Positions 26,233-54,522 of a stretch of 64,000 nt of DNA are shown piece by piece. Below the pieces are notes generated by a model. That model had not been told where the DNA came from. It saw only the letters and a program-made list of their open reading frames with translations, and did not search any database. Every line of letters begins with the position of its first letter. Position 1 is the stretch's first letter. Position numbers and translations under genes: made by a program. This DNA comes from Thermincola carboxydiphila (GTDB taxonomy: Bacteria; Bacillota; Thermincolia; Thermincolales; UBA2595), in contig JAENYP010000010.1 in the NCBI GenBank assembly GCA_016841725.1, positions 32,971-96,970 of the forward strand. Direction: 5' to 3'.

Positions 26233-26247
26233 TGAAGGATGATATAG

Positions 26248-36710: not shown

Positions 36711-37198
36711 ATTCCCCCCAGCGCCTGGATTGTTATTTTTATCAAAGCGACGATAAATGCCGAAAAAACTCCATACGCGATTACAGAACCGGCCAGTTTG
36801 AACATATTGCCGCCAACACCCAGGACATAGCCCTCAGTACGGTGCTCTATAGCTGCAGATGCCACAGTGTTGGCGAACCCGGTTACCGGAACAGCAGTTC
36901 CGGCTCCGGCCCACTGGGCAATATGATCATATACTCCCAACCCGGTTAACAAAACCGAAAGCATTATCAGTACCGCAACTGTGGGATTACCGGCAGTAAC
37001 CTCTGTAAATCCAAAATACGTCATAAACAGCCATTGCAGCCCCTGACCTATTGTGCAAATAATTCCCCCGGCGATAAAGGCCCTTACACAGTTTAAAAGC
37101 ACCGGACGGTTAGGCACCCTGACCTTGGCAAACTCTTTATATTCCTGCTGTGTAAGACTGAGTTTTTTTGTTTTCATATTGGACATTTTCCAGGTCAC
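36707..37198 (-). CDS. spoVAC: Stage V sporulation protein AC
   Basis: 163 aa. Cytoplasmic start (KLSLTQQEYKEFAKVRVPNR) then four membrane helices (FIAGGIICTIGQGLQWLF). SpoVAC acts as a mechanosensitive channel component for dipicolinate. Homologous to SpoVAE in the window (shared ICxIGQ, GAGxxVPxxxFxN). It ends in the start of spoVAD and begins directly after the YetF-like gene. Confidence 0.91.
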   Translation of the reverse strand: MTWKMSNMKTKKLSLTQQEYKEFAKVRVPNRPVLLNCVRAFIAGGIICTIGQGLQWLFMTYFGFTEVTAGNPTVAVLIMLSVLLTGLGVYDHIAQWAGAGTAVPVTGFANTVASAAIEHRTEGYVLGVGGNMFKLAGSVIAYGVFSAFIVALIKITIQALGGI

Positions 37199-38541: not shown

Positions 38542-40746
38542 TTACATCAGTGGATCCATTGCCAGTGCGGGGTGTCCCTTTTCTTCCAGGAATGGAAGAA
38601 TCTCTTCACCGGATACGCCAACACTTTCATCAGCAATCTTATCTACGAAGTCACGACCGAGTCCGTCCTCTTCTGCTCTCTCTTCGAGAATTTGGCGGAG
38701 CGATTCCTTGAGGGCTTTCGGCATCCATACAAGACGGCCCAAACCACCGTCTGCCTTGATAAATTTCCGGGAACCAAAGTATGCTTTACCAATTCCCATG
38801 AATCCGGGCATCTGGGCGCCACCGCCGCAGGTACCGGCCAGGGTTGAGAAGTTCATCCCACAGGGAGTCATCCCGGAGTGTTCGCGGTTAACTACCATGA
38901 AGCCATTGGCTTCGGGAACCATTGTCATGATAACCTCAAAACATCCGCAGGAAGTCATCGGGTTATCCATAATGGTATAGAAGTTAACTGCCTCAACAGT
39001 TCTCTGGGAGTTCTGATAAATAAACTCATTGAAGGATTTCCACTGACCATTAACCTCGTCAAGACATTCGCCCTTGAGTATGGGTACGTTGGCACCGTGG
39101 GGATTGATCTCATATGCTGCCTTGGCATCAAGCCAGGATACGGCACCACAGAGACCCACCCGCTCAGGAGCAACAACACAGACGTGGGTCGGGGCAAATG
39201 ACTGGCACAGGGTGCAGGAATAGAATTCTTCAACACCTTCATCAGTCAGTTCGCGGAGACGGGCATCACGCGCATTGTACTTCTCACGGGCAAACTCACG
39301 GCGCTTGATAACTTCTTCCTCATCTGTGATCAGGTCTATCTGCACCCGGTCAACAATGGCCGGGAACTCAGCCTTAAACTTGGCATAAAGCAATCTTCCC
39401 AGGTGTTCCATGCGGAAACCCTTGCCCACTGCATCCTTGGTAAAGCGCAGCCAGTTCAGGTCACGCTGGGCAACGTGCCAGATACCCTCACCATAGTTGG
39501 TGAAATAGTGAATCCGGCGCTCCAGAACAGGCTCGAAGTCTGACTGCATCTTGCGTCCGTAAATCCTGACATGGATTCCGAGGGGCAGCCTGCCGCCATC
39601 TTCACCCAGTGTGTCAATATCAGGACCAATAACTGTAATCTTACCGTCTTCGATATCGTCTCCAACCATTTCAACCAATTCGAAGCCGGGGGTACGACCG
39701 CCGCCAAATTCGCAGTACATATCGCCCTTACGGACAGTCTCACCCTCAAAGGCGGGACCGTGGTTGATGGGGATGTCAATATCAATGTTGGTAAGCTTAA
39801 CTCCCCGGACTTCAAGAGCGACCTGAATAATTTTCTCATAATCAGGTTCCGATATGAACCAATCGGGAATCTGCTCATCTTCGGCCAACTCCTGGTCAGT
39901 GATAACCGGGAATCCGGTATAAATCGCACCGGCACAGGCCGCATCCTTAACAAAGTCTTGCTCACCCAGGTAGAGAACAAAGGCGAGAACACGACGACGC
40001 TGGTAATCTCTCTGGGCATCGGTCATGCCCGGCTTAATCCCACCGAACATCATCCCGGCCCGGAGAGCATAGTTGGCAGCATGGACAACCTGGGTAAAGT
40101 TGCCCAGTGGGTAAGCAATATAATCCAGACCCAGCTTAACATTTTCTTCAAGCAATTGTTCAATAATCTCGTCACTAAGGAAAATCATCATACCTTTACT
40201 CATCAGGTCAGCAACAATTTTAGCTGCCAGTTTGCTGTCTTTTGCCCGGCCAACAATAACAGCTTCTCCGGGGATGGTCCAGTCAACCATCTTGATACCA
40301 AAGGAACGGACAACAGGGTCACCGATAAATCCGGTCCACGGTTCAGGAAATCTTGGAGTGGTTTCATCATAACCTATGTACTGAATTGCCTCAATAATTT
40401 CGGCAGCATACCATGTTGACATACCGTTTAAACGGTATTGTTCAAAGGTCAGCGCCTCTGAGATCTGGTTGCGCATCCTGTTGAGGATAGGTATCAGTTC
40501 ACCCAAAGTAGTAACTTTTTCACCGCTCCAGCAGCGAATTACCGGAAGGAAGTAAGCGGTGTTGGGATAACCTATTTTTTGATCCCTTCCCTGAGTACGG
40601 ATTGCCCTCGTTAAAAGAATTTCTGCATAGCTAACCGCAGTAATGGCGCCTTTATATGCCCTTCTGAACATTTTAACGGGTTCTTTGCCTTCTATAGCCT
40701 TTTTAGCATCTGCATATATTTGATCAAAGTTGAGTTGCTCTGACAT
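38542..40746 (-). CDS. acsB: Acetyl-CoA synthase (CODH/ACS beta subunit)
   Basis: 734 aa, full length for bacterial ACS. A-cluster ligands are in order: CTLCQSF, HVCVV and VGLCG, then MTSCGCFE with the Cys-Gly-Cys that holds the distal nickel. Joins CO, a methyl group from the corrinoid protein and CoA into acetyl-CoA. Encoded 33 nt after the CODH gene with a good ribosome site (AAAGGAGGAAAAAG). The corrinoid protein, methyltransferase and cooC genes normally nearby are not present; a terminator follows. Confidence 0.95.
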   Translation of the reverse strand: MSEQLNFDQIYADAKKAIEGKEPVKMFRRAYKGAITAVSYAEILLTRAIRTQGRDQKIGYPNTAYFLPVIRCWSGEKVTTLGELIPILNRMRNQISEALTFEQYRLNGMSTWYAAEIIEAIQYIGYDETTPRFPEPWTGFIGDPVVRSFGIKMVDWTIPGEAVIVGRAKDSKLAAKIVADLMSKGMMIFLSDEIIEQLLEENVKLGLDYIAYPLGNFTQVVHAANYALRAGMMFGGIKPGMTDAQRDYQRRRVLAFVLYLGEQDFVKDAACAGAIYTGFPVITDQELAEDEQIPDWFISEPDYEKIIQVALEVRGVKLTNIDIDIPINHGPAFEGETVRKGDMYCEFGGGRTPGFELVEMVGDDIEDGKITVIGPDIDTLGEDGGRLPLGIHVRIYGRKMQSDFEPVLERRIHYFTNYGEGIWHVAQRDLNWLRFTKDAVGKGFRMEHLGRLLYAKFKAEFPAIVDRVQIDLITDEEEVIKRREFAREKYNARDARLRELTDEGVEEFYSCTLCQSFAPTHVCVVAPERVGLCGAVSWLDAKAAYEINPHGANVPILKGECLDEVNGQWKSFNEFIYQNSQRTVEAVNFYTIMDNPMTSCGCFEVIMTMVPEANGFMVVNREHSGMTPCGMNFSTLAGTCGGGAQMPGFMGIGKAYFGSRKFIKADGGLGRLVWMPKALKESLRQILEERAEEDGLGRDFVDKIADESVGVSGEEILPFLEEKGHPALAMDPLM

Positions 40747-40779
40747 TCTTTTTCCTCCTTTCGAATTGGGAAATCAGAA

Positions 40780-42792
40780 TTAATAATTCTGGCACAGTTT
40801 AGTTTCGAATTTTTCAGCAGTCTTCTTGTGAACCCCTAATTTCCAGGTTCTATATTCAAGAGCACTCAAAATCTTTTGTGCTGCAAGCTTGGGGTCCATT
40901 TCAAATATGAAGTATCCGCCATAGACATCACTGGCAATCTGAGTAGTAATACTGTAGAACAGATCACTACCTTCAACAGGAGGCATTGTGCCAACATGAA
41001 CGGGCGCTCCTAAAGTTACATAATGGGTACCGATAGAAACCGCTTTACCACTCATAGCTTCGGGAGCAGATGCTACAAACGGTACTTTAGGAGTATCTAC
41101 GCCCATATAATTAGCCATATCCATGAAAAGGTCAGAGCAACGTGTATTATCAACACAGGAACCCATGTGGAATGTTGCCGGCAGTGCAATACCGGATTTT
41201 TCTTCCAATGTATCCAGGAAAGCATTTAGTCCGTCTCCACAGAGGTCCTTCCTGTTGGCAGGATTCATAATGCCAAACTTGGCCATATCCTGAGCAGAGC
41301 ATCCGGTAGCTATAATAAAGACATCATTTTTCAGGAGTTCCTTGGTAATGGTAATGTGGGCCTCGTTTTGAATTGTCTTCAGGTTTTCACAGCCGCATAA
41401 CAAAGCAACACCTCTAATTTGTCCTGCTTCAATAGCATCAACAAGGGCGCCGACAGGTTTATCTGCCTTAACTTTGCCCAATATATCGTACATAGCTTCA
41501 AGACTGAAGCCGGCAACAACTTTCTCTTTATACTGCGGAATTTTAACAGCTCTGTCTTTACGCTCTTTATATGAATCAATAGCAATTCTTACTATTTCTT
41601 TAGCATCATACATAGCTGAATCTACATTAAAGGGCACATGCATCGAACCAGGAAGCTTAACGATATCCTGGGTTGATATAATCTTGGTATGGAAACATTT
41701 GGCTACCTGTACGATTCCAGGCATAATACATTGAACGTCAACAACCATGGCATCAACAGCTCCGGTTGTAATAGCAAGTTCCTGGGACGAGAAAGATGTA
41801 CAAATTGGCACACCCTGTCTCATAAGTACTTCGTTTCCTGTACAGCAGATACCGGATAACTGGATTCCGGCAGCGCCTGCTTCTTTTGCTTCTCCGTCTA
41901 ATTCTCTGGCAGCGGCAACAATCATCTCACTTAGAATTGGGTTATGTCCGTGAAGAATTATATTTACATGGTCTGCCTTCATTACACCCATGTTGGCTTC
42001 GGAAACAACAGGCTCCGGAACTCCGAAGATAACATCCGACAGGTCTGTCGCAATCTTCATACCTGTGACATCCGCTAATGCGGCCCGCAGAGCGCTGAAT
42101 GTAATGTTAACAGGGTCATTATCCTGTCCAACATGTGCTTGTGCAAGAAGGTCTGCCATAGCTGACTGGATTCCATTAGGCATAATATTGCAAGCCCTGT
42201 ATTTTTCCTTTCGGCCTTCAGTGACCATAGTTGTTGTCCATGTACATTCGCCCCTGCCCGGCAGGAGTTCAAAGTCTTTTAAGGCCAGTTCTGCCACTTC
42301 TTTAGCAAGCTCCAGATCAGACTTACCTTCAATTTCAATACCTACTTTGGCAGCAACACTTTTCAGTTTTTCAGGGCTGGTAATTTTATAATCAGGGGCT
42401 TTCCCTTCTGAAAGTTCTAACAGGGAATGGGCAATATGCCGGCCATGTTCACAGTGTGCCGCACACCCTGTCAGCAGCATTGTACCGGTGCTTCTGGCCG
42501 CAATGGTCCATGCATCGGCGCCGCAAATACCTTTACTCTTGGGTCCGGTATCGGCAGTAAGCCGGCAGGGACCCATCATGCAAAACCTGCAGCAAATCCC
42601 TTTGTAACCAAACTGACATTGAGGCTGCTGCGCTAAAAACCGGTCGAAAGTTGTCTGGATACCTTCTTCCTGAGCCTTGTCAATCATCTCCAAAGCGGCT
42701 GGGTCAATAGAACGTTTAACATTTTTGGGGTCAACAACTCTCGGGAAATCTGACGGTTTGCAGGTGTGGTTTGGGTCTTTAAATCTTGGCAT
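40780..42792 (-). CDS. acsA: Carbon monoxide dehydrogenase catalytic subunit
   Basis: 670 aa, Ni-Fe CODH. N-terminal B/D-cluster cysteines (CRFCMMGPCRL) and C-cluster region residues (HGHNPILSEM, SGICCTGNE, ATGCSAQDMAKFG, HMGSCVDNTRC) are visible. Reduces carbon dioxide to CO for the neighbouring acetyl-CoA synthase, or oxidises CO. Because it is linked to acsB it is named acsA rather than a respiratory cooS. Leader of about 260 nt upstream, promoter at 43060-43088. Confidence 0.94.
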   Translation of the reverse strand: MPRFKDPNHTCKPSDFPRVVDPKNVKRSIDPAALEMIDKAQEEGIQTTFDRFLAQQPQCQFGYKGICCRFCMMGPCRLTADTGPKSKGICGADAWTIAARSTGTMLLTGCAAHCEHGRHIAHSLLELSEGKAPDYKITSPEKLKSVAAKVGIEIEGKSDLELAKEVAELALKDFELLPGRGECTWTTTMVTEGRKEKYRACNIMPNGIQSAMADLLAQAHVGQDNDPVNITFSALRAALADVTGMKIATDLSDVIFGVPEPVVSEANMGVMKADHVNIILHGHNPILSEMIVAAARELDGEAKEAGAAGIQLSGICCTGNEVLMRQGVPICTSFSSQELAITTGAVDAMVVDVQCIMPGIVQVAKCFHTKIISTQDIVKLPGSMHVPFNVDSAMYDAKEIVRIAIDSYKERKDRAVKIPQYKEKVVAGFSLEAMYDILGKVKADKPVGALVDAIEAGQIRGVALLCGCENLKTIQNEAHITITKELLKNDVFIIATGCSAQDMAKFGIMNPANRKDLCGDGLNAFLDTLEEKSGIALPATFHMGSCVDNTRCSDLFMDMANYMGVDTPKVPFVASAPEAMSGKAVSIGTHYVTLGAPVHVGTMPPVEGSDLFYSITTQIASDVYGGYFIFEMDPKLAAQKILSALEYRTWKLGVHKKTAEKFETKLCQNY

Positions 42793-42844
42793 TAACTTAA
42801 CCCTCCTTAAAATAGTGTATTTCTCTAATTAATTCTCTTGGAAT

Positions 42845-43052
42845 TCAAACCAGGTTTTCATTTTCAAAAAGTAATGTAATATCCTCTCCCCTGGACATTT
42901 AAGCAAATGTCCTCTATACCACCACCTCCTGCAGTAATTTTAGTGAACATTTATATATTTGAATACCTGGTTTTTGGGCTGTCGGTTTTCGGGGTAAAAG
43001 GTTAGAAATAAAGTAAAAAAGCGAAGAAATGGTTTGTTTCGGGCATAAGCCC
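42845..43052 (-). promoter_or_regulatory. Long leader of the CODH-ACS operon with two palindromes
   Basis: Part of the 454-nt gap 42793-43246. The predicted transcript carries GGGC-TTAT-GCCC near its 5' end (43041-43052) and an 8-bp perfect hairpin GGACATTT-GCTT-AAATGTCC (42893-42912). A 17-codon frame starts inside the second hairpin (42898-42845). Control by structure or by a DNA-binding regulator is possible; no known riboswitch was recognised. Confidence 0.35.
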
Positions 43053-43059
43053 ACTTATT

Positions 43060-43088
43060 ATAATAAACCAAATTTAGGTTTTAGTCAA
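43060..43088 (-). promoter_or_regulatory. Sigma-A promoter of the CODH-ACS operon
   Basis: Minus-strand TTGACT, 17 nt, TATTAT (overlapping TATAAT three bases on). Predicted start near 43053. Confidence 0.6.
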
Positions 43089-43246
43089 ATGCCCATAACC
43101 ATTTTATTATAAAATAATTAGCAATTATAGTAATTAACTACTTTCGGATTAACATAAACCGGTCTAAAGTAACCATCCTCTGCCCTCCGGAATATACTGT
43201 TTACAGTCATATGTTTATAGTCATATATTAATAAGGAGGTTTTGCA

Positions 43247-46200
43247 ATGAGTAACGGTAACCCCCTCCTTACAGTTCAAGTGAAGGATGTTAAAATAAAC
43301 CAGCCACTGAGCAACTTCAGGTTTATTGTCAATGAAAACAATGTAGGTAACCCCTTTGACCCTGACCCTGATAACTGGCCATCCCTGAAGCCGGGAGCCA
43401 GTCACAGTCCGGTAATTGCCGTGGGTGATTCATCTGCCCCGACAGTGGCAGTACCGGAGGGCAGTTATTTGGTCTCAGTCCTTGCCCCCGGTTACAAGCT
43501 GGGCGGACAGCACATCAGTGTTTCTGCCGACTTGACCGTGACCATAAGACTCTACCCTGACCCCCTTCCCCTCTCCAAGATCAGGATCCATGTTTTCCAG
43601 GACAACAGCCCGGTCAATGGTGAAGATGATGTTCCGCTGGAACAGGGACTGGAGGGATTCAGGATAGTGATCGGTGATGTGGTAGGAGAAGTGACTACCG
43701 ATTACTTCGGTAATGCCCTCGGGATTATCCTGACTGATGCCAATGGAGATGCCGTTATCGAAAACCTGGCCCCGGGCAAATATGAAGTGCAGGCCATTCC
43801 ACCCGACGGAACCGATTGGATTCAGACCACCACTATCGAAGGAACCCACATAATAGATGCCTGGATTGAAGAGGGCAATGACGGGTACAGTCCGCGGGAA
43901 GGCTTCAAAGCCCCCCTGGTCTGGATAGGTTTTGTACAGCCCATGGAGTTTCCCCTGCCGGGGCCGGGAGAAACTACGGGAACAATCACCACCCAGGTAA
44001 AAACAACCATTGAATTTGTCCCCCCAACCAAACCCCTGACCCTTGGTGACCCTGTAAACCGTCCCTGGGTAGCCCTGACCGATGTGGGACGCACCGATAA
44101 ACAGGTTTATACCGGCCGTGGCGATAGCAGCGGCAATGTCTCCATCCCAAATGTACCGGCAGGGGTATACCAGATGGCTGTCTGGGATGAACCTCTTGAT
44201 TACATTATTTCTTTCAGGACAGTGCAAATACCCGACCCGGTAACCGGCAGCTGGAACGTGGTTGTCACAGACGATCCGGCCAGATATCCCGGTCAAATAG
44301 GTATCCCGCGCTGGTATGGATGGATTCTGGGAACAGTATTCTGTGACAGCAATGGAAATGGGATTTTTGAACCCGGACTGGGAGAAGAAGGTATCCCCAA
44401 TGTTGCCGTAGGGACCAGGTTTAAGGACGGCAGCATCCAGTACAGCGCTGTCACAGACATGATGGGCAATTACTCATTGGATGAGGTCTTTGAACTGGAG
44501 CGTTTCAATGTTTCCGAAGTAGGATTTACCCGGTTTGGAAGAACCACGGCCACAGCCACACCCGACTACCAGAATCCTGACCAGAAGCCCACTACCGTCT
44601 ATGATGGCGACCTGACCCTGGCCACCCTGACCTGGGCGGCAAAAAAGAACCGTATCGACTGGGGCAAAAAAGAATACCCCCTGCCCGGAGCAGACGGTAT
44701 ATTGGGAACTGCTGATGACACCACAAATGGCGGCATATCGGGAATGATATATTATGCCACCATGCGCAACGAACTGGACCCGCGCTATGCCGTAGCCGAA
44801 GGTTATGAGCCGGGAGTCCCCAATGTTGTGGTTAACCTGTATGCCACTACAGTTGACCCGGTAACAGGTGAAATCCAACGGGGACCCAAAATTAATTCCA
44901 TAACCTCAGATGCCTGGGAACACCCCCGGAATACTGACGGAGACCCGGTCCTTGAAGTTCCCGGGACCGGAAACTATATCGCCAGAGGGGTATTTGACGG
45001 CGGGTACGCCTTTGAGTCTCTGGCTGAAGGGGTCTATATCGTTGAAGTTGAAGTACCTGACGGATATAAAATACTGGATGAATCTTCAATAAATACAGGG
45101 GAAGGCGATATCTTTATCCCGGCCGAAAATTTTAGCGTCCAGCTTGCTCCCCCGCCATATGAAGGTTCTTCCCGGACTGCTAAAATTGTAACTTTGACCT
45201 GGGGACAGAATGCCGCTGCCGACTTCTTCATTTATACCGATGTCCCGGTTCCGGGCAGGATAGTTGGTTTCCTGCTGGATGATGTCAATATAGAAACAGA
45301 CCCCGCCAGAATCTACTATGGAGAGAAACGGGGTATTCCCCTGGCACCGGTGGGAATCAGGGATTTTACCGGCCGCCTGATTACAACGGTCCATTCAGAC
45401 CTTAACGGGATTTTTGAAGTCATCCTGCCATCAACCTATACAGCTAATATCCCCTCTCCCTCCGGAGTTGCTCCGGGGATGTACCAGGTAATCGGCAATG
45501 ACCCCGGAGACCCTGAGGCCCCTAACGAGAATTTTAACCCCAACTATCAAACCCTGAAATTGGTCTTTGATGTTTGGCCCGGTAAAACAACTTATGCCGA
45601 TGTGGCCTTGTTCCCCATTACCGCCTTTGTGGAAGCTCCCGGCAGCCAGTTCGCCCAGCCGCCGCTGTGTAAAGTAAAGCCCGGGACCCCGCAAATCAGC
45701 AGGGTCAACAGGGTTTATTTCACCCGCACCGGCACAAGGACACTGGTTATTGACGGCACAGACCTGGGGAACCGGATTGGTTATGTTACCTTGAACGACA
45801 AATTCCTGCCCATCGGCAGGTGGAGAAATAACCGGGTCACCTGTGCTATTCCCAGGAATTTCCCCAGCGGGGCCTGGCAGCTACTGCTATATAATTCCAA
45901 CGGTCTGGCAGCACCAACCGGACTGACCATCCATATCCTTGGCACCTATTATAATCCGGCAATAGTGATTGTTCCGGCAGGCGGTTCTATCCAGTCAGCC
46001 ATAGACAACGCAGCAAATAAAAGCCTGATCATTGTTGAGCCGGGTACTTATTATGAAAGTCCCATCCTCTATAACAATGTTAAGGTTCAGGGGTATGGAC
46101 CGGAAGTTACCAGAATTGACGGGCGCTTTTTCCTGAGCTATCTTGAGCAATGGGTCCAGAAACTTGACAGCATTGAATTCGACGGTAACCAGGAAATCCC

Positions 46201-47677
46201 GCGGGGACAGGTAATTACCGTTATAGCCAAAGACGGTGTATTTAATAGAAATTTCCACACCCAGCTTGACGGTTTCTATATTACAGGCTCCAGGGGTGAG
46301 GAAGGCGGCGGGCTGTATATCAATGCTTACTGCCGCTACCTGGAAATCAGCAACAACATAGTCCGGAGCAACGGCGGCGGTTTCGGCGGCGCTATTACCG
46401 TCGGGAAGGCCTATATTGGAGATAATCATAATGAACGTATCAGAATTTATTACAACAGGATTCTCAACAATGGCGGCATCAGCCTGGCCGGGGCTGTCGG
46501 CATCTTTAACGGCGCCCACTATTATGAAATTGACCATAACGAAATATGCGGCAATTATTCTGCCGAATATGGCGGCGGTATTTCACACTTTGGCCTGAGC
46601 AGGTTTGGCAAAATTCACCGTAACTGTGTATCATTCAATGCCTCCTTTGATGAAGGAGCAGGCATCTTCATCGGCGGCGAACAGCCGGTTCCCCCGGCAG
46701 TGCTTTCGGCAGGTTCCGGTGAAGTAGAGATATACAATAACTGTATCCAGGGAAATGTTGCCAATGATGACGGCGGTGGTATCAGGCTCCTGCAGCCGGG
46801 TACCTACCTGATTAAAATCTACAACAACATGATTGTAAACAATATCTCTACAGACGTGGGCGGCGCTATAGCCCTGGATGATGCCGCCAATGTGGTTATT
46901 TACAACAATACCATCGCCAAAAATATCACCACAGCCACAGCCGAGGACAGTGACGGCAATCCCCATGGCGCCGGTTTGGTCAGTGAAATGAACAGTTCCG
47001 CTTTCCAGGCGGTGCTGCCTCCCGGCTCTCCGGTCTTCAGTGACCCGGTGCTGTTTAATAACCTGTTCTGGGATAACCGGGCTTATCATTTTGATATCAA
47101 TACCGGAAAGCTCTCCAAAGACTACCGGCGGATTGACCTGGAGGTCTTCGGTACGGCCACACCCCTGTATATGACTCCTGATTACTGTTACCTGACTGTC
47201 CCTTACGGTTCCGGGACACATAACATAGTATATAACGGACATAATTCTCCTAGATTTAAGAAAATCTATGATACCAAACTCAGTGTAATAGCATTCACCA
47301 CTGAACCGACCTTTAAATCAGTTAAAATTGTCACCGTAACTCCGGAAGCAGAAGGGGATTACCACCTCAGGCGGAACTCTCCGGCCGTGAACCGCGGCAC
47401 CAAATACTATACCGCCGGGGGCACAACCTGGCAGGCCCCGGATTTCAGTTTTGACGACCTGCCCAGGCCCTGGCAGAGATATGACATCGGGGCAGATGAA
47501 TACTGGCCAATACCCCTACCCTATCCCGTGCTGAAAATCTTTGACACGGTATCCGGTATGCTGAAGAAAAAGGGGATTAATTTCCCATCTCCTTTCATCG
47601 GCCGCACCCCTGCCCTGATGACTGTAAAGACGGCGGAAGAGCCGGAAAGGGGCGATAAAAATGGCTGTAATCAATAA
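43247..47677 (+). CDS. Giant scaffold-like protein: Carboxypeptidase-regulatory/SdrD-like repeats, IPT and beta-helix
   Basis: 1476 aa, no signal peptide or anchor. From N to C: four or five Ig-like modules of the SdrD-B/carboxypeptidase-regulatory type (GTVFCDSNGNGIFEPGLGEE, about 360; GGISGMIYYATM, about 495; GRIVGFLLDDVNIE, about 670), an IPT/TIG-like domain (VYFTRTGTRTLVIDGTDLG, about 830-900), then a right-handed parallel beta-helix (SIQSAIDNAANKSLIIVEPG onwards to about 1300) with Asn/Gly-rich coils, and a tail ending YDIGADEYW. Strong SD AAGGAGG. It overlaps the first cupredoxin gene by 17 nt, so it probably organises or localises those oxidase-like proteins on an outer layer such as the spore surface. 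Confidence 0.75.
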   Translation: MSNGNPLLTVQVKDVKINQPLSNFRFIVNENNVGNPFDPDPDNWPSLKPGASHSPVIAVGDSSAPTVAVPEGSYLVSVLAPGYKLGGQHISVSADLTVTIRLYPDPLPLSKIRIHVFQDNSPVNGEDDVPLEQGLEGFRIVIGDVVGEVTTDYFGNALGIILTDANGDAVIENLAPGKYEVQAIPPDGTDWIQTTTIEGTHIIDAWIEEGNDGYSPREGFKAPLVWIGFVQPMEFPLPGPGETTGTITTQVKTTIEFVPPTKPLTLGDPVNRPWVALTDVGRTDKQVYTGRGDSSGNVSIPNVPAGVYQMAVWDEPLDYIISFRTVQIPDPVTGSWNVVVTDDPARYPGQIGIPRWYGWILGTVFCDSNGNGIFEPGLGEEGIPNVAVGTRFKDGSIQYSAVTDMMGNYSLDEVFELERFNVSEVGFTRFGRTTATATPDYQNPDQKPTTVYDGDLTLATLTWAAKKNRIDWGKKEYPLPGADGILGTADDTTNGGISGMIYYATMRNELDPRYAVAEGYEPGVPNVVVNLYATTVDPVTGEIQRGPKINSITSDAWEHPRNTDGDPVLEVPGTGNYIARGVFDGGYAFESLAEGVYIVEVEVPDGYKILDESSINTGEGDIFIPAENFSVQLAPPPYEGSSRTAKIVTLTWGQNAAADFFIYTDVPVPGRIVGFLLDDVNIETDPARIYYGEKRGIPLAPVGIRDFTGRLITTVHSDLNGIFEVILPSTYTANIPSPSGVAPGMYQVIGNDPGDPEAPNENFNPNYQTLKLVFDVWPGKTTYADVALFPITAFVEAPGSQFAQPPLCKVKPGTPQISRVNRVYFTRTGTRTLVIDGTDLGNRIGYVTLNDKFLPIGRWRNNRVTCAIPRNFPSGAWQLLLYNSNGLAAPTGLTIHILGTYYNPAIVIVPAGGSIQSAIDNAANKSLIIVEPGTYYESPILYNNVKVQGYGPEVTRIDGRFFLSYLEQWVQKLDSIEFDGNQEIPRGQVITVIAKDGVFNRNFHTQLDGFYITGSRGEEGGGLYINAYCRYLEISNNIVRSNGGGFGGAITVGKAYIGDNHNERIRIYYNRILNNGGISLAGAVGIFNGAHYYEIDHNEICGNYSAEYGGGISHFGLSRFGKIHRNCVSFNASFDEGAGIFIGGEQPVPPAVLSAGSGEVEIYNNCIQGNVANDDGGGIRLLQPGTYLIKIYNNMIVNNISTDVGGAIALDDAANVVIYNNTIAKNITTATAEDSDGNPHGAGLVSEMNSSAFQAVLPPGSPVFSDPVLFNNLFWDNRAYHFDINTGKLSKDYRRIDLEVFGTATPLYMTPDYCYLTVPYGSGTHNIVYNGHNSPRFKKIYDTKLSVIAFTTEPTFKSVKIVTVTPEAEGDYHLRRNSPAVNRGTKYYTAGGTTWQAPDFSFDDLPRPWQRYDIGADEYWPIPLPYPVLKIFDTVSGMLKKKGINFPSPFIGRTPALMTVKTAEEPERGDKNGCNQ

Positions 47678-48692
47678 GCGTTTTGGGGCCACCGATGGTT
47701 ACATTACAATGCCCGACGGTTCTGAGCATTACATTTTTGGCTGGGTTGACCTAACCGGAATTCCCGACAGTGAAATATTTTCCTACCGGGGGAAAGCCCA
47801 GCTGCTGGGGCCTCTTTTGGAAGCAAAAGTCGGGGATGAAGTATACCTGACACTGACTAACCTGGGCATGCCGGTCAGGCCCGATCTTGATGACTCCCAT
47901 ACGATCCACTGGCATGGTTTCCCCAACCAGATAGCCCTCTATGACGGTGTCCCGGAAGCCTCGATATCGGTACCGGTAGGGCGGGATTTTGTATACTACT
48001 ATAAACCTCTGGACCCGGGTACTTATATCTACCACTGCCATTTCGAACCTGTGGAACATATCCAGATGGGCATGGTCGGGCCCCTGTTGGTGCGGCCTGC
48101 AGATTATGACCCCGATAATCCGGCATATAAAACGGCTTATGGCTATGCGACCGGGACCGAATTCGACCGTGAATACTTTGTATTCCTGACTGAACTGGAC
48201 AGTGCCGCTCACCATCAGGTGGCTGTTGTGCAGGAATATGACTGGACGGAGTTTTCTCCTGATTACTGGTTACTTAACGGCAGATCCTATCCCGATACTG
48301 TCAAATCCGGCGCAGACCTCCCTGAACAGCCATTTTCAGCTTTAGTTAAAGCAAATTCCGGGGAAACAGTCCTGCTCCGCTATATTAACCTTGGCTACCA
48401 GCAGCATTCCATAGAAATCCTGGGTATCCCTGTCCGGATAGTGGGTCAGGATGCCGTCAGGCCCCTGGGAATGAACGGTGAAAACCTGGCCTACTGGAAG
48501 AACTGCAATTATTTTGCCGCCGGGCAGACCCTTGATGGAATATTTACCGCACCCGCCCCAGGGACGTATCCCGTACTAAACCGGGATTGCTATAAAAATG
48601 CCAATGCCGGAGTGACGCCTGGAGGCATGGTTTCGGAAGTACAGGTATTTACTGCCGGGACCCTGCCTCCCCAGGCCGGCCCAGGGCAGTAA
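47661..48692 (+). CDS. Two-domain multicopper oxidase-like protein A (domain 1 copper ligands)
   Basis: 343 aa, two cupredoxin domains, no signal peptide. Domain 1 keeps a complete ligand set: HTIHWHG (His80, His83, His85) and YHCHFEPVEHIQMGM (His125, Cys126, His127, His133, Met136/138), that is, a type 1 copper site plus two HxH pairs for the trinuclear centre. In domain 2 the matching site reads HSIEILG and the last site NRDCYKN, so its HxH pairs are lost. Active only if another chain provides the other two HxH pairs; protein B does have them. Overlaps the scaffold gene. Confidence 0.8.
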   Translation: MAVINKRFGATDGYITMPDGSEHYIFGWVDLTGIPDSEIFSYRGKAQLLGPLLEAKVGDEVYLTLTNLGMPVRPDLDDSHTIHWHGFPNQIALYDGVPEASISVPVGRDFVYYYKPLDPGTYIYHCHFEPVEHIQMGMVGPLLVRPADYDPDNPAYKTAYGYATGTEFDREYFVFLTELDSAAHHQVAVVQEYDWTEFSPDYWLLNGRSYPDTVKSGADLPEQPFSALVKANSGETVLLRYINLGYQQHSIEILGIPVRIVGQDAVRPLGMNGENLAYWKNCNYFAAGQTLDGIFTAPAPGTYPVLNRDCYKNANAGVTPGGMVSEVQVFTAGTLPPQAGPGQ

Positions 48693-48705
48693 AGGTGGGA
48701 TTAAA

Positions 48706-49902
48706 ATGACAGTTAACATTGAATTGTGGGCTACTGATGGTTATATGAGCACACCTGACGGAAACAGTATTTATATCTGGGGGTTTAGTGATGCCGCCGG
48801 AAAAAAAGCCCAACTGCCCGGACCCAGAATTGTGGTCACCCAGGGGGATGTTGTCAGCATCACAGTCAACAATATCCTTCCCGAAGCCACCTCTCTTTTA
48901 TTTCCCGGCCAGTCAGGCGTATTGGCTGATACCGGCACAGGGCCGCACCTTGCGCAGCCACAATTTGACGGCAGCGGCAATTTAGTATCTCTGACGGATT
49001 TTGCTGATTATCCCGGAAACCCGGACACCAACCCTGCCAGCATTAAATATACCTTTACAGCCGGAAATCCGGGAACATACCTTTATGAAAGCGGTACCAA
49101 TCCCCATAAACAGGTCCCCATGGGCCTTTACGGAGCAATAATCGTAAGGCCTGCCGACTATGACCCGGCGATACCCACCAGAAAAACCGCCTATGGAGAA
49201 AACACCGGAACCGAATTTGACCGGGAATACCTGATAGTTGTCTCTGAAATCGACCCCGCCCTGCACAGCGCGGTAGAAAAGGGAACAGAGTACAAAATAC
49301 GGGAATTCAAACCCCGGTACTGGACTATGAACGGCCGCTGCGCTCCTGACACCATGTTTGCCGACGGTATGGGCTGCCTGCCCAACCAGCCCTATGGGGC
49401 CATGATTATGGCAGAACCCGGCGAAAAAATCCTGATCCGTTATGCAGGCTCCGGGATTGAGAACCACCCCCTGCACCTCCACGGAAACCATACCAGAATT
49501 GTTGCTGAGGATGGCCGCCTGCTTAAGAACGGCGCCACTGATTTATCCTACAAACGGTTCACGGTACTCACCGGGTCAGGCCAGACTTATGACCAAATCT
49601 TTACCTGGTCCGGCCTGGGTTATAGTCCGGCTGACCCGATTCCCACCACTGTACCCAATCTGCGCAACCTGGGCGTGGGAGATGCCGGGTGGACTTTGTG
49701 GAGCGGCAGCCCTTACCTGGGAGAAAAAGGAGATATTCCGGTGGGTGTTACCTCCTTTAATGGGATTGGGGAGTATTACTTTATGCTGCACTCCCATGAA
49801 GAGATGCAGATTACCAACTGGGGCGAGTTTCCGGGAGGGATGATGAGTATGCTGGCAATATTCCCTGCCGGCACGCTCGGAGATACAGGAATAATAGAAT
49901 AA
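48706..49902 (+). CDS. Two-domain multicopper oxidase-like protein B (domain 2 copper ligands)
   Basis: 398 aa, two cupredoxin domains, no signal peptide. Domain 1 has lost its ligands: the HxxHxHG site of protein A aligns with TSLLFPG and HCH with ESG in LYESGTNPHKQVPMGL. Domain 2 has NHPLHLHGN (His254, His257, His259) and MLHSHEEM (His362, His364), giving two HxH pairs, but Ser replaces the type 1 Cys. Exactly complementary to protein A. Follows it by 13 nt with AAGGTGGGA as ribosome site. Longest of the three owing to an insert of about 45 residues before the last motif. Confidence 0.8.
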   Translation: MTVNIELWATDGYMSTPDGNSIYIWGFSDAAGKKAQLPGPRIVVTQGDVVSITVNNILPEATSLLFPGQSGVLADTGTGPHLAQPQFDGSGNLVSLTDFADYPGNPDTNPASIKYTFTAGNPGTYLYESGTNPHKQVPMGLYGAIIVRPADYDPAIPTRKTAYGENTGTEFDREYLIVVSEIDPALHSAVEKGTEYKIREFKPRYWTMNGRCAPDTMFADGMGCLPNQPYGAMIMAEPGEKILIRYAGSGIENHPLHLHGNHTRIVAEDGRLLKNGATDLSYKRFTVLTGSGQTYDQIFTWSGLGYSPADPIPTTVPNLRNLGVGDAGWTLWSGSPYLGEKGDIPVGVTSFNGIGEYYFMLHSHEEMQITNWGEFPGGMMSMLAIFPAGTLGDTGIIE

Positions 49903-49937
49903 TTCCCCCTTTAGGGAACTGAAAGGAGGAATAAGTT

Positions 49938-50876
49938 TTGACAGTAAATATTAACCTGTGGGCCAAAACAGGCAGTTTATCCTTGCCTGGAGCCGGCACA
50001 GTGCCCTTTTGGGGGTTTGCTGGTGCAGCAGCAGGGCCTGCCCAACTGCCGGGACCCCTGTTGGAAGTACCCCAGGGAGAGAATGTTGAGATTTCCCTGA
50101 CAAATGACCTCACCTTTGGTGTTTCTCTTGTCTTCCCCGGACAGGATTTTATTCCCCAGCCGGTAAAAAATCCGGACGGAGCATTCGTGTCTTACAACCT
50201 GGAAACCGCACCCGGAGGCAGCTTAATTTACTCCCTGACCGCGAGCCGTCCCGGTATATTCCTTTACGAAAGCGGCACCGCCCCGGAAAAACAGATTCAA
50301 ATGGGCTTATATGGCGCCATGGTTGTCCGCCCTCCGGGGTTTGACCCCGGTAATCCGGCGACATGGACGGCTTATGGCCCCGGTACCGGAACCGAATTTG
50401 ACGTGGAAAAAATTCTGGTTATCAGTGAAGTGGATACAGCCATACACCAGGCCCTGGCATCAGGTGATGACCCGGCAGCCTATAATCTGGATTATTTTTT
50501 AATCAATGGGCGCAGCTTCCCGGATACGTTAAACCCTGACGACAGCGGGACCCAGCCCTATAGCGGCAAGATCACAGCAAATTCAGGGCAGCGGGTTTTG
50601 TTACGGATTATCAATGCCGGGTTTATGAACCATAATATCCGGCTTCAGGGTATTGATATCAAGGTAGCAGCAGGTGACAGCCGGCCGCTGATAACACCCG
50701 GCCTCGATAAATCGTATCTGAAGCATACAGTTACAATAGGTTCCGGTCAGTCATATGATATCCTGTTTACTGCTCCGGCTGCAGGGAACTACATCCTTTA
50801 TGACCGCAATCTGAATTGCTGTGTCAATGGAAACAATTTTCCGGGCGGGATACTGACTATGGTCGGGATAATTTAG
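49938..50876 (+). CDS. Two-domain cupredoxin protein C (no copper ligands)
   Basis: 312 aa, closely related to protein B in both domains (LYESGTAPEKQIQMGLYGA; TGTEFDVEKILVISEVD). All copper motifs are gone: VSLVFPG, ESG, HNIRLQG and NLNCCVNG. It can only be structural, for instance filling the third two-domain position in a six-domain ring like that of ceruloplasmin or MnxG. SD GAAAGGAGG. Last gene of the four-gene operon, followed by a strong hairpin. Confidence 0.78.
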   Translation: MTVNINLWAKTGSLSLPGAGTVPFWGFAGAAAGPAQLPGPLLEVPQGENVEISLTNDLTFGVSLVFPGQDFIPQPVKNPDGAFVSYNLETAPGGSLIYSLTASRPGIFLYESGTAPEKQIQMGLYGAMVVRPPGFDPGNPATWTAYGPGTGTEFDVEKILVISEVDTAIHQALASGDDPAAYNLDYFLINGRSFPDTLNPDDSGTQPYSGKITANSGQRVLLRIINAGFMNHNIRLQGIDIKVAAGDSRPLITPGLDKSYLKHTVTIGSGQSYDILFTAPAAGNYILYDRNLNCCVNGNNFPGGILTMVGII

Positions 50877-50901
50877 ATTAATTAAAAATTATTTGGCGCT
50901 A

Positions 50902-50941
50902 TTAGATTAATTCCCCCTGTAAAAAGGGGGAATTAATCTAA
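50902..50941. terminator. Bidirectional terminator between cupredoxin operon and acr3
   Basis: 16-bp perfect inverted repeat TTAGATTAATTCCCCC around an 8 nt loop; its right arm covers the stop codon of the convergent acr3. A run of A/T pairs at the base serves both strands. Confidence 0.8.
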
Positions 50942-52011
50942 GTCATCCCAATTCGTTCCGCCTCACCCTCTCTGGTGAAATACTTCTTACCCCAGTTGAG
51001 AGCTACATTAACCAGGGCTATCATAACCGGCACTTCGATAAGAGGACCAATTACCGCAGCAAAAGCCTGACCCGATTCGATACCAAATACGGCTACGGCA
51101 ACCGCTATTGCCAGCTCGAAGTTATTGCTGGCCGCAGTGAAGGATAGGCTGGTGGTTTGGCCATAGTTAATACCCATCTTCTTGCTGAGGAAGAAAGACA
51201 CCGTAAACATCACCACGAAATAAATCAGCAGCGGGATGGCGATACGCACCACATCGACCGGCAGCTGTACTATCAACTGCCCTTTATAGGAAAACATTAC
51301 TACAATGGTAAAGAGCAGCGCAATCAGGGCCAGGGGACTGATCTTGGGTACAAAGGTCTTTTCATACCACTCCTTCCCTTTGGCCGGTTCCAGAAAAAGC
51401 CTGGTCAGCATGCCGGCAGCAAAAGGAATCCCGAGATAGATAGCAACGCTTTTGGCCACCTCACCCATGCTAATATCAACTTCCATTCCCCTGAGTCCCA
51501 GCCATTCCGGCAGCACCGTGATAAAAATATAGGCATAGACCGAGTAGAAAATTACCTGGAATATTGAGTTAAAGGCCACCAGGGCAGCGGCATATTCGGT
51601 ATCGCCTTTAGCCAGAGAATTCCAGACAATAACCATAGCGATACACCGGGCCAGTCCGATTAAAATGAGACCAACCATATATTCAGGATAATCCTGCAAA
51701 AATACTACCGCCAGCACAAACATCAGGATAGGTCCGATAATCCAGTTTTGCACCAGAGATAATCCCAGCACCCGGGTATTTCGGAAAACCTTGCCCAGTT
51801 CCCGGTAATTTACTTTAGCCAGGGGCGGGTACATCATAATAATCAGACCTACCGCAATTGGTATTGAGGTAGTCCCCACAGACAACCTGTCTAAGAGATC
51901 AGCCACCCCGGGGAAAATGTACCCGATGCCAACCCCAATAGCCATTGCCAGAAAGATCCAGAGAGTCAGCAGTCTGTCCAGCACAGACAATTTTGCCTCT
52001 TTTTGCGCCAT
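50938..52011 (-). CDS. acr3: Arsenite efflux permease Acr3
   Basis: 357 aa, ten membrane helices. Acr3 features: [19 protein letters not shown], the essential cysteine of helix 4 in [15 protein letters not shown], and [15 protein letters not shown]. Expels arsenite (or antimonite) using the proton gradient. Second gene of an arsR-acr3 operon, 42 nt downstream of arsR; SD AAGGAGG. Confidence 0.93.
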
Positions 52012-52053
52012 TCCAGTTTACCTCCTTGATATCATTATCTGTTAGTCTGACTG

Positions 52054-52416
52054 TCAGTTTTTCGCAGTTAATTTTTCACAAACAGCCGGGTCAGTTCTTA
52101 CCTGGGAAGGCGGCAGATTTTCCAGTTTCTTTAGGATAGGTTCCGCATAACACCGGACTGTTTCCGCCGCTTCATCCGTAAAAATCTCCTGAAAAACACT
52201 GCCATTCAAGGAATAGTATATCCATTTCCCTTCTTTGCTGTCTTTTACTAACCCAGCCTGCCTCAGGATTTTCAGGTGGTGGGAAACAGCAGGCTGAGAT
52301 ATGTCGAGTTTATCGAAGATTTCACAAACACACATCTCCTGTTCTGACAGCATATTTAGTATTTTTAATCTGATTTCATCTCCTAAAGCCTTATAGAATT
52401 CTGCAATTTTTTTCAT
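52054..52416 (-). CDS. arsR: ArsR-family metalloregulator
   Basis: 120 aa winged helix. Metal-binding motif EMCVCEIFD in helix 3 and recognition helix QPAVSHHLKILRQAGLV. Represses the operon and leaves the DNA on binding arsenite. Promoter region upstream is very AT-rich and holds a palindrome at 52453-52478. Confidence 0.9.
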   Translation of the reverse strand: MKKIAEFYKALGDEIRLKILNMLSEQEMCVCEIFDKLDISQPAVSHHLKILRQAGLVKDSKEGKWIYYSLNGSVFQEIFTDEAAETVRCYAEPILKKLENLPPSQVRTDPAVCEKLTAKN

Positions 52417-52452
52417 GTATTACTCCCTTCCGTATAATGTTTAAATATATTT

Positions 52453-52478
52453 AATATTATTTATATGTTTATAATATA
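52453..52478 (-). promoter_or_regulatory. Likely ArsR operator
   Basis: AATATTAT-N10-ATAATATA imperfect inverted repeat, in the AT-rich promoter region 40-60 nt upstream of arsR. Confidence 0.4.
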
Positions 52479-52809
52479 TAATCTTATGCTAAAAAGCAAT
52501 ATTTGGAGTGAATTTATTTGACACATCCCTGCTCGTAAGATTTAAAATTTAAAAAGGATTTAAGAAAATACAGGAAGAATTATTAAATATTGATTAGCAA
52601 TGATTATCATTATTTGACTGGTATTTTTATGGATATTAAGCGCCTTTTCAGCAGCTGCTTGAATGTCTGCCTTCTTATAACAGGCTGAAAACGGTAACCT
52701 CAAAAAAGAACCAGTTCATGGGAAAACTGTCTTCAGGGAAGAGAATTACCAAAAAAATATTTCTGGGAGCTAATGCTGAAATTTCTTATCAATTAGGAGG
52801 GGTATTGAG
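52479..52809. other. Gene-less gap with a Fur-box-like palindrome
   Basis: About 330 nt without a credible gene on either strand. At 52599-52611 is AATGAT-T-ATCATT, which equals the core of the classical Fur box apart from the central base. No open frame with ribosome site follows it, so it may be what is left of a lost iron-controlled gene, or chance in AT-rich DNA. Confidence 0.35.
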
Positions 52810-52835
52810 AAAAGGCTCCACGCCTGGAGCCTTTT
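52810..52835 (-). terminator. Terminator after the permease gene
   Basis: AAAAGGCTCCA-CGCC-TGGAGCCTTTT, an 11-bp perfect stem with T on both ends, so it can act on either strand; it lies 12 nt after the permease stop codon. Confidence 0.88.
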
Positions 52836-52847
52836 CTTGCTGCTCAA

Positions 52848-53864
52848 CTATCCCAAAAGATATGATGTTGCATTAAAAAAGTAACCCATAACAACAATTC
52901 CAACCGCTACTATCGCGAAGAAGACTGCCAGGAGTTTGGGTTTGACCACCTTTTTCAGCATAATCATAGAGGGCAGCGATAAGGCTGTAACCGCCATCAT
53001 GAAGGACATTACTGTTCCTACTCCAACCCCTTTGGCTAATAATGCTTCGGCTATCGGCAAAGTGCCAAAGATATCGGCATACATGGGAATGCCTACTACT
53101 GTTGCGAGTATCACCGCAAATGGATTATTATCACCAACCACATTTTCTATAATTGACTGGGGAATCCAGTTGTGAATTACCGCTCCTATCCCGACACCAA
53201 CCAGGACGTAGAGCCACACTCTTTTGATAATGTCTCTGACCTGATCCCTGGCAAAGGCTATTCTTTCTTCACGTGTCTTCTCAACAACTACAGAGTCGAC
53301 ATTTTCAATTTCTCTGACATAACCTTCCACATACTTTTCCAGACCTAACTTGTCAATAAATGTGCCGCCGACAACTGCCAAAACCAAACCGACAATAACA
53401 TAGGCAATGGCAATTTTAGCTCCGAAAAATGACATTAATATCAATATTGATGCCAAATCTACAAGTGGTGAGGATATCAGGAATGAAAAGGTAATTCCCA
53501 ACGGCAGACCTGCCGAGGTAAAACCGATAAATATCGGTATACTGGAGCAGCTTCAGAATGGGGTAATTGTTCCCAATAATGCGCCAAGAATATTACCTTT
53601 GATACCTCCCATCCTGCCCAGAATTTTTTTGGTCCTTTCAGGCGGGAAATAGCTTTGAATGTACGATATGCCAAAAATAAGCACAGACAATAAGATGAAA
53701 ATCTTGATCGTATCATAGATAAAAAACTGGATACTCCCCCCAAGTCTCTCCTGGACAGACAAACCAAATACCTTTTCCACCAACAGGCTTACCGATTCTG
53801 AAAGCCATGTCATTCTTAGAAGTTGGTCGTTGAGCCAAATAAATATCTGAGTTAAAATCTGCAT
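52848..53864 (-). CDS. Permease (ArsP/YraQ, DUF318 family) with in-frame UGA, candidate selenoprotein
   Basis: Read through one TGA codon at 53555-53553, the frame gives 338 aa, the normal length of this eight-helix permease family. The text around it is GTITPF-(UGA)-SCSSIPIF, where relatives have FCSCSS, so UGA sits exactly on the first Cys of the conserved Cys-Ser-Cys. Codon 104 would be selenocysteine and codon 106 is Cys. Everything downstream is intact and in frame, unlike a decayed gene. A hairpin ACCGAT-ATTT-ATCGGT lies 14 nt after UGA. The family moves arsenic, copper or zinc species or thiol compounds; third gene after arsR and a CxxC protein. Confidence 0.75.
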
Positions 53865-53932
53865 AAAACTTCACCACTCTGTCTGATATATTTATCCGAA
53901 TACCTAACCACAGCTAATACTTCCACTCTTAG

Positions 53933-54178
53933 TTAGCCTTTGGCAGCTTCTGTGATAACTTCTGTCAGCTTTACTTTAGAAGGCACACCACCCGACAATT
54001 TTACCTGGCCGTCAATTACCAGAGCAGGGGTTGACATAACACCAAAAGACATTATTTCCTTGAAATCTGTTATATGAGTGACACTGGCATCCAAATTCTG
54101 TTCTGCCAGCACATTAAAAACCATCTGCTCAAGTTTGTTGCAGTTAGCACACCCAGCACCCAATACTTTAATATCCAA
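53933..54178 (-). CDS. Small thioredoxin-like redox protein (CxxC)
   Basis: 81 aa from TTG 54178, since AAAGGAGGTG lies 6 nt upstream and would be overlapped by the GTG at 54187. Thioredoxin fold with GAGCANCNKLE (Cys10, Cys13) and the cis-Pro region MSTPALVIDGQV. Belongs to the redox-active disulfide protein 2 type. Placed between arsR and the permease, a common trio. It may reduce the Sec/Cys pair of the permease or hand over thiol-bound metalloid; inferred. Confidence 0.85.
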   Translation of the reverse strand: MDIKVLGAGCANCNKLEQMVFNVLAEQNLDASVTHITDFKEIMSFGVMSTPALVIDGQVKLSGGVPSKVKLTEVITEAAKG

Positions 54179-54183
54179 GCCAA

Positions 54184-54522
54184 TCACCTCCTTTTGCTTT
54201 TTGCTTTCTTACTTAATAGCTCTAAAGTCTCATTGACCTGGGTAACAAGTATCTCTTCCACCAAATCCAGTATTTCAAAAACCTGGGGATAGATTACCGA
54301 ATATATGACCTTTAGACCTTCTTTCCGGCTGGCCACAATATTTTGTTTGCGCAGAATTGCCAGGTGCTGGGACATGTTTGACTGCTCCACATCCAAGTCC
54401 TCGGTAAACTCACAAACACATTTCTCTCCATCCATCAGGTGCTTTAATATACGTACCCTGGTCGGATGAGCAAGGGCCTTAAAAAAATCGGCTTCCATTC
54501 CGAACAACCTTTCATTCATCAT
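54184..54522 (-). CDS. ArsR-family metalloregulator, second copy
   Basis: 112 aa. Metal motif EKCVCEFTEDL and recognition helix QSNMSQHLAILRKQNIV, so thiol-based metalloid sensing is expected. First gene of the arsR, thioredoxin-like, permease operon. ATG 54522 or 54519 with AAGGGGTGA. A 22-bp perfect palindrome lies 60 nt upstream. Confidence 0.88.
   Translation of the reverse strand: MMNERLFGMEADFFKALAHPTRVRILKHLMDGEKCVCEFTEDLDVEQSNMSQHLAILRKQNIVASRKEGLKVIYSVIYPQVFEILDLVEEILVTQVNETLELLSKKAKSKRR

Follow-up and report, generated by a model that had tools for sequence, protein, structure and literature searches.

A candidate heterotrimeric multicopper oxidase with a divided active site in Thermincola carboxydiphila

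The present analysis concerns three adjacent genes, here named A, B and C, in a stretch of 64,000 nucleotides (nt) from contig JAENYP010000010.1 of Thermincola carboxydiphila (the window, to which all coordinates refer). Each gene encodes a two-domain cupredoxin, and the four HxH pairs and the type 1 copper site of a multicopper oxidase are present in A and B jointly, but in neither chain alone. These data suggest that A, B and C are probably the subunits of a heterotrimeric multicopper oxidase, which was triplicated from a homotrimeric type C ancestor and has one shared site. With slightly less assurance, we also consider it likely that the heterotrimer is obligate, having a trinuclear site built from two gene products and a catalytically dead third subunit, and that it is an unfused counterpart of the six-domain oxidases with one site; the same judgement, taken jointly, covers the proposal that two of three active sites can be lost before gene fusion, or without it.

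Division and conservation of the copper ligands

Genes A (47661..48692, 343 amino acids (aa)) and B (48706..49902, 398 aa) start with ATG, and gene C (49938..50876, 312 aa) starts with TTG. They are consecutive open reading frames (ORFs) on the plus strand, with gaps of 13 nt between A and B and 35 nt between B and C, and the start of A overlaps the 3' end of an ORF of 1476 aa (43247-47677). Because of the short gaps and this overlap, the genes, four in all, appear to form a single operon. Pfam multicopper-oxidase domains were found above the curated cut-off in A, B and C, while an Rfam search of positions 42800-51500 returned no match.

Domain 1 of A contains HTIHWHG and HCHFEPVEHIQMGM, which together make up a complete type 1 site (H80, C126, H133 and M138) and one half of a trinuclear site (H83, H85, H125 and H127). 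As assigned from sequence and conservation, the codons of H80, H83 and H85 lie at 47898..47915 and those of H125, C126, H127, H133 and M138 at 48033..48074, both on the plus strand; the HCHFEPVEHIQMGM stretch lines up with the matching motifs of the solved structure 3g5w. Domain 2 of A is dead, reading HSIEILG at the site equivalent to HxH. In B it is domain 1 that is dead (TSLLFPG and ESGT), and domain 2 carries the other trinuclear half, namely HPLHLHG and HSH, with no Cys. On the same basis, the plus-strand codons of H257 and H259 (the HLH of HPLHLHG) were placed at 49474..49482 and those of H362 and H364 (HSH) at 49789..49797. C has VSLVFPG and ESGT in domain 1, HNIRLQG in domain 2 and no HxH anywhere. 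The type 1 copper site is thus confined to the N-terminal domain of A, and B and C are without the type 1 Cys. A sequence check confirmed the motifs, residues and numbering given for the three proteins in the initial annotation, as well as its description of C as a third, dead homolog.

Each of the trio loci that were examined has A, B and C as distinct ORFs with starts and stops of their own. No polypeptide of the trio therefore holds six cupredoxin domains, nor does any one chain hold four HxH pairs, which are split over domain 1 of A and domain 2 of B. Two apparent fusions were rejected: a frame of 1086 aa in genome G310, in which A seemed to be joined to the large preceding gene, is an overlapping GC-rich frame, and a C-like ORF of 1051 aa (L042) is C with a long tail rather than a fused trio.

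Ligand conservation was counted over 46 A, 39 B and 37 C distinct sequences. In A, C126, H125 and H133 were found in 46/46, H127 and H80 in 45/46, and H83 and H85 in 44/46, the departures coming from one gapped row and from G051, a genome without B. M138 was near invariant (one Leu). In B, H257 and H259 were present in 39/39 sequences and H362 and H364 in 38/38, plus one gap. Every intact trio, in each of the three phyla, retains all eight trinuclear His residues, and in the same sequence sets the sites equivalent to the missing HxH pairs in domain 2 of A, domain 1 of B and both domains of C were never refilled. The division of the ligands thus exceeds what chance would give. The initial annotation held that the split would be contradicted by homologs of B or C retaining all four HxH pairs, and none was found among the 39 B and 37 C sequences.

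The same trio with the same split, which the initial annotation had proposed to look for elsewhere, recurs in many genomes. One copy is in a metagenome-assembled genome (MAG) of Thermincola ferriacetica, of the same genus, whose A is 92% identical. Other Bacillota with the trio include Moorella, Desulfallas, Tepidibacillus and many uncultured members; outside this phylum it was found in Thermoflexus and other Chloroflexota, in Ilumatobacter and other Actinomycetota, and on one Dormibacterota contig. The order A-B-C behind the same gene of about 1500 aa was observed in 28 loci, and no other neighbor was widely conserved. B-like genes (at least 60% identity) were present in 17/398 genomes sampled across Bacillota; the cassette thus appears to be sparse but widespread.

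Some loci are degraded. At L100 (G371) the large gene is truncated, A and B are gone and C remains; at L053/L041 (G172) A is broken; and at L055 (G095) a fragment of C alone is left.

Ancestry, proposed assembly and alternative explanations

In a tree built from 75 modules, A, B and C each formed one clade (support of 99, 99 and 96 in the Shimodaira-Hasegawa-like approximate likelihood ratio test, SH-aLRT), and each clade was divided alike into Bacillota and Chloroflexota/Actinomycetota. These parallel splits indicate an old triplication, after which the three genes were inherited together. When the window was compared with two relatives, the ratio of nonsynonymous to synonymous substitution rates (dN/dS) was 0.05–0.17 for the trio genes and the large gene; the values for C were 0.17 and 0.11, indicating that this ligand-less protein is under purifying selection. 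Mean pairwise identity was 66.7% in domain 1 of A compared with 53.4% in its domain 2, and 59.8% in domain 2 of B compared with 56.1% in its domain 1. Both domains of C were at 46%.

Co-variation was assessed by a mirror-tree approach, in which the distances of each domain pair were correlated with the remaining four domains held constant, using 300 resamplings of genomes and columns. The partial correlation was highest for A domain 1 and B domain 2 (r = 0.76), followed by B domain 1 and C domain 2 (0.42), with C domain 1 and A domain 2 at 0.30. B domain 2 was the best partner of A domain 1 in 295/300 resamplings. For the ring as a whole, the direction A1-B2, B1-C2, C1-A2 was favored over the reverse in 290/300. 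The shared face of A domain 1 and B domain 2, as put forward in the initial annotation, is the best-supported one on the grounds of ligand conservation and co-variation.

Among solved structures, the nearest to the profiles of A and B are two type C two-domain oxidases, 3g5w and 2zwn. Two-domain oxidases form trimers in which each trinuclear centre draws its ligands from domain 1 of a protomer and from domain 2 of the adjacent one, and in type C the type 1 copper is in domain 1 (PMC13151041). A six-domain heterotrimer is the natural reading of the trio, since its closest solved relatives belong to this trimer-forming class. The interpretation in the initial annotation is supported in this respect, as it is for the split and its recurrence, but not for the parallel it drew with MnxG (see below).

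According to this model, the homotrimeric ancestor would have had three equal faces, each with domain 1 packed against domain 2 of the next chain and each with a trinuclear centre. In the predicted 1:1:1 ring of A, B and C, only the face between A domain 1 and B domain 2 would keep its ligands, the B1-C2 and C1-A2 faces being structural, and C would close the ring. The type 1 copper of A domain 1 (H80, C126, H133, M138) would accept electrons from the substrate, and these would pass along the usual Cys-His path, through Cys126 and the adjoining His, to a trinuclear centre formed by H83, H85, H125 and H127 of A together with H257, H259, H362 and H364 of B. These ligands are expected to converge in the assembled ring, and O2 would be reduced to water there. 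The co-conserved protein of about 1500 aa is probably a surface scaffold or a partner.

Several observations weigh against this model. Several of the hosts are strict anaerobes, so that O2 is not an obvious acceptor during growth. Structure prediction with AlphaFold2 of a read-through A-B-C chain (L037, 14 alignment rows) was poor, with a predicted local distance difference test (pLDDT) score of 59 and a predicted template modeling (pTM) score of 0.36; the A-B chain alone (L037, 23 rows) gave a moderate model (pLDDT 73.5, pTM 0.57). In some alignments MAFFT wrongly set rows holding B or C alone against the A region of the fused queries, and these alignments were discarded. In a Foldseek search the best matches of the A-B model were four-domain stretches of ceruloplasmin and factor VIII (TM-score 0.45–0.49), which bear out a cupredoxin-ring fold and neither confirm nor exclude the A1-B2 face; if anything, they hint at a chain-order packing of A2 against B1, imposed by the linker. 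Furthermore, mirror-tree values can reflect a common constraint instead of contact, and within Bacillota alone the co-variation was weaker (222/300 and 146/300 resamplings). Because of this lower support, the co-variation is taken as supporting, not decisive.

One alternative is that A and B alone make up the enzyme, as A-B pairs or in rings of some other stoichiometry, with C as a distinct protein of structural or regulatory function. In its favor, the ligands are confined to A and B, and a natural fusion of the A-B type is known from locus L142 (575-2866, minus strand; G588, a Chloroflexota MAG), with no C-like neighbor beside it. Here one ORF of 764 aa contains four cupredoxin domains, with the domain 1 sites (HTIHLHG and HCH) retained in module 1 and the domain 2 sites (HAMHLHG and HDH) in module 2. 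The remaining two sites are dead, a plastocyanin-like domain follows module 2, and the ORF upstream encodes a tandem plastocyanin-like protein. Such a fusion was found in one genome. Its modules branch with ordinary two-domain oxidases (L115, L116), apart from A and B, and the same partition of ligands therefore appears to have arisen independently, at least twice; this parallel also counts in favor of the heterotrimer model. C, on the other hand, lies beside A and B in almost every complete locus and is under purifying selection; it is homologous to them, has the same two-domain fold, and its domain 2 takes part in the second-strongest co-variation, with B domain 1. Moreover, it takes three two-domain units to close a ring of this fold (PMC13151041). 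An enzyme made of A and B alone is thus considered unlikely.

Another group of relatives, seen in Bacillota (L013, L014, L015, L078 and their relatives), consists of two-domain oxidases of 510–554 aa with all four HxH pairs in each chain. In domain 1 they share about 50% identity with A, and they are possibly homotrimeric cousins of the trio.

It was also considered whether the proteins are not oxidases at all, but act each on its own, A as a blue copper protein for electron transfer or copper storage and B as a copper-binding partner. The hosts are largely anaerobes, which would suit this explanation, and so would the genome G051, in which A and C are present (L044:7613-9688), B was not found genome-wide and the large gene is missing. 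Its A reads HTIYWEG and YHCYF, i.e. H83, H85 and H127 are replaced by Tyr, Glu and Tyr while H80, C126, H133 and M138 are kept, and the sequence marks it as a type 1-only derivative, pointing to such a role in that organism. G051 is the sole full-length A without B, a single case in a draft genome. The same pattern is, however, as expected if the trinuclear half of A is useful only together with B. Independent proteins would hardly keep complementary halves of one site, and the eight trinuclear His residues occur in every intact trio of the three phyla. Separate copper proteins are therefore improbable in the trio, and rather more so than an enzyme of A and B.

A third explanation is that the shared site resembles that of the nitrite reductases and binds a single type 2 copper instead of three coppers. 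Copper nitrite reductases likewise combine two domains and have their type 1 copper in the first, and weak matches to this family were obtained. But they are generally known to retain three type 2 His residues, whereas all eight are invariant here; the closest structures are 3g5w and 2zwn and not nitrite reductases; and the match to TIGR02376 reached 41 bits against a cut-off of 296. We regard such a site as very improbable. The idea that B and C are remnants of a decayed oxidase finds examples in the broken loci of G172 and G371 and the C fragment of G095. For the intact loci it is refuted, since their frames are open in three phyla, dN/dS is low and the ligands are invariant.

Comparison with known copper oxidases

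The type C oxidases 3g5w and 2zwn resemble A in being two-domain chains with a type 1 site in domain 1 and the motifs HTIHWHG and HCH. They differ in that the homotrimer has four HxH pairs in each identical chain and three active sites, while the trio would have one site and a dead third chain. Ceruloplasmin and hephaestin share with the proposed trio six cupredoxin domains and the retention of one of three potential trinuclear sites, but they are single fused chains and type B-like, whereas the trio is unfused and type C-like. In these enzymes the type 1 sites are in the even-numbered domains and the trinuclear centre lies between domains 1 and 6 (PMC3600357). By analogy, the trio may work like a type C trimer cut down to one site and, like ceruloplasmin, keep one site of three.

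In the initial annotation MnxG was thought to carry its trinuclear centre between the first and last domains. This is contradicted by the literature on bacterial six-domain oxidases including MnxG, in which the centre lies between domains 2 and 3 and the type 1 copper in domain 2 (PMC3600357). Bacillus MnxG (MnxE3F3G complex; PDB 9bxa) is still comparable to the proposed trio in that it is spore-linked and has six cupredoxin domains and one trinuclear site. It is, however, one chain of 1217 aa, whose small partners MnxE and MnxF are unrelated to it (PMC5622069). MnxG was absent among the best 60 PDB matches listed for the A or B profile, and the model for the Pseudomonas-type MnxG (NF041487) gave 10.6 bits against a cut-off of 3100.

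Coagulation factors V and VIII are heteromeric six-domain cupredoxin rings after processing, in which copper sites have been partly lost, as proposed for the trio. Unlike the trio they are eukaryotic, are derived from a fused chain and are, as is generally known, not oxidases (PMC3600357).

Heteromeric laccases exist in fungi, where the POXA3-type enzymes are heterodimers of a laccase and a second subunit. This small subunit is not known to contribute ligands to the active site. The open-access literature, the part that was covered, yielded no multicopper oxidase described as heterotrimeric or split, which is weak evidence of absence.

The fourth gene, protein export and sporulation

The fourth gene of the cassette (43247..47677, plus strand) encodes a protein of 1476 aa with SdrD_B/CarboxypepD_reg-like, TIG-like and beta-helix regions. 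It precedes A in 28 loci, and in an alignment of 21 rows 415 positions are at least 95% conserved. Its product has no signal peptide in the window copy, but has one in the copies from Thermoflexus and Ilumatobacter. The initial annotation included neither this conserved gene nor the signal-peptide contrast and sporulation link described here.

The leader of the fourth gene (43200..43246, plus strand) contains CATATGTTTA/CATATATTA, which resembles the -10 element of sigma-E/K promoters, and the ribosome site AAGGAGG. In the upstream regions of 18 Bacillota loci the sigma-E/K-like -10 element CATANNNT occurred in 12/18 compared with 4.7 expected, and sigma-K-like promoters in 4/18 compared with 0.33 expected, a number that 0/200 shuffles reached; this enrichment holds for the set of 18 loci, some of them close relatives, and not for the site in the window singly.

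Hydrophobic N-terminal signals were found outside Bacillota in 12/12 B and 14/14 C sequences. Inside this phylum they were found in 1/27 B, in a doubtful frame, and 0/30 C, and none of 32 Bacillota A had a hydrophobic N-terminus. A twin-arginine (Tat) motif was present in 10/15 A from outside Bacillota, several of the remaining five being cut loci. Judging from these N-termini, the version in Chloroflexota and Actinomycetota would be exported, A by Tat, and B and C by Sec. In Bacillota, the lack of signal peptides and the sigma-K-like promoters suggest that the cassette is probably expressed in the mother cell and its products placed on the surface of the spore, like CotA and MnxG, which is the best explanation available. 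Spo0A was detected in 18/20 Bacillota hosts compared with 0/12 of the others, and the window itself contains genes of germination receptors (GerA, spore permease, GerAC) together with spoVAC and spoVAD at 25039-28504 and 35706-37198, which shows that this host has spore genes.

Upstream of the cassette and on the opposite strand lie genes for the acetyl-CoA synthase beta subunit and CO dehydrogenase (38542-42792), which suggest an anaerobic CO/acetyl-CoA metabolism. Directly downstream, also on the opposite strand, is an arsenic-type cluster (50938-54522) comprising an SBF/ACR3-type transporter, two ArsR-like regulators, an ArsP-type permease and a small thioredoxin-like protein; it was conserved within the same genus only.

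Published schemes for the origin of ceruloplasmin-type oxidases start from a six-domain ancestor that had three trinuclear sites and lost two of them after fusion (PMC3600357). A conserved unfused heterotrimer that has already lost two of its three sites would be a stage missing from these schemes, and the cassette resembles an unfused form of the stage thought to be ancestral to six-domain oxidases such as ceruloplasmin. It would also provide a natural system in which a copper site for the four-electron reduction of O2 depends on hetero-assembly and in which metal loading could be controlled for each subunit; in the exported versions, such subunit-wise loading may proceed by way of Tat (A) and Sec (B and C). 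For the spore-forming anaerobes, among them Thermincola, Moorella and Desulfallas, the cassette points to an uncharacterized oxidase apparatus.

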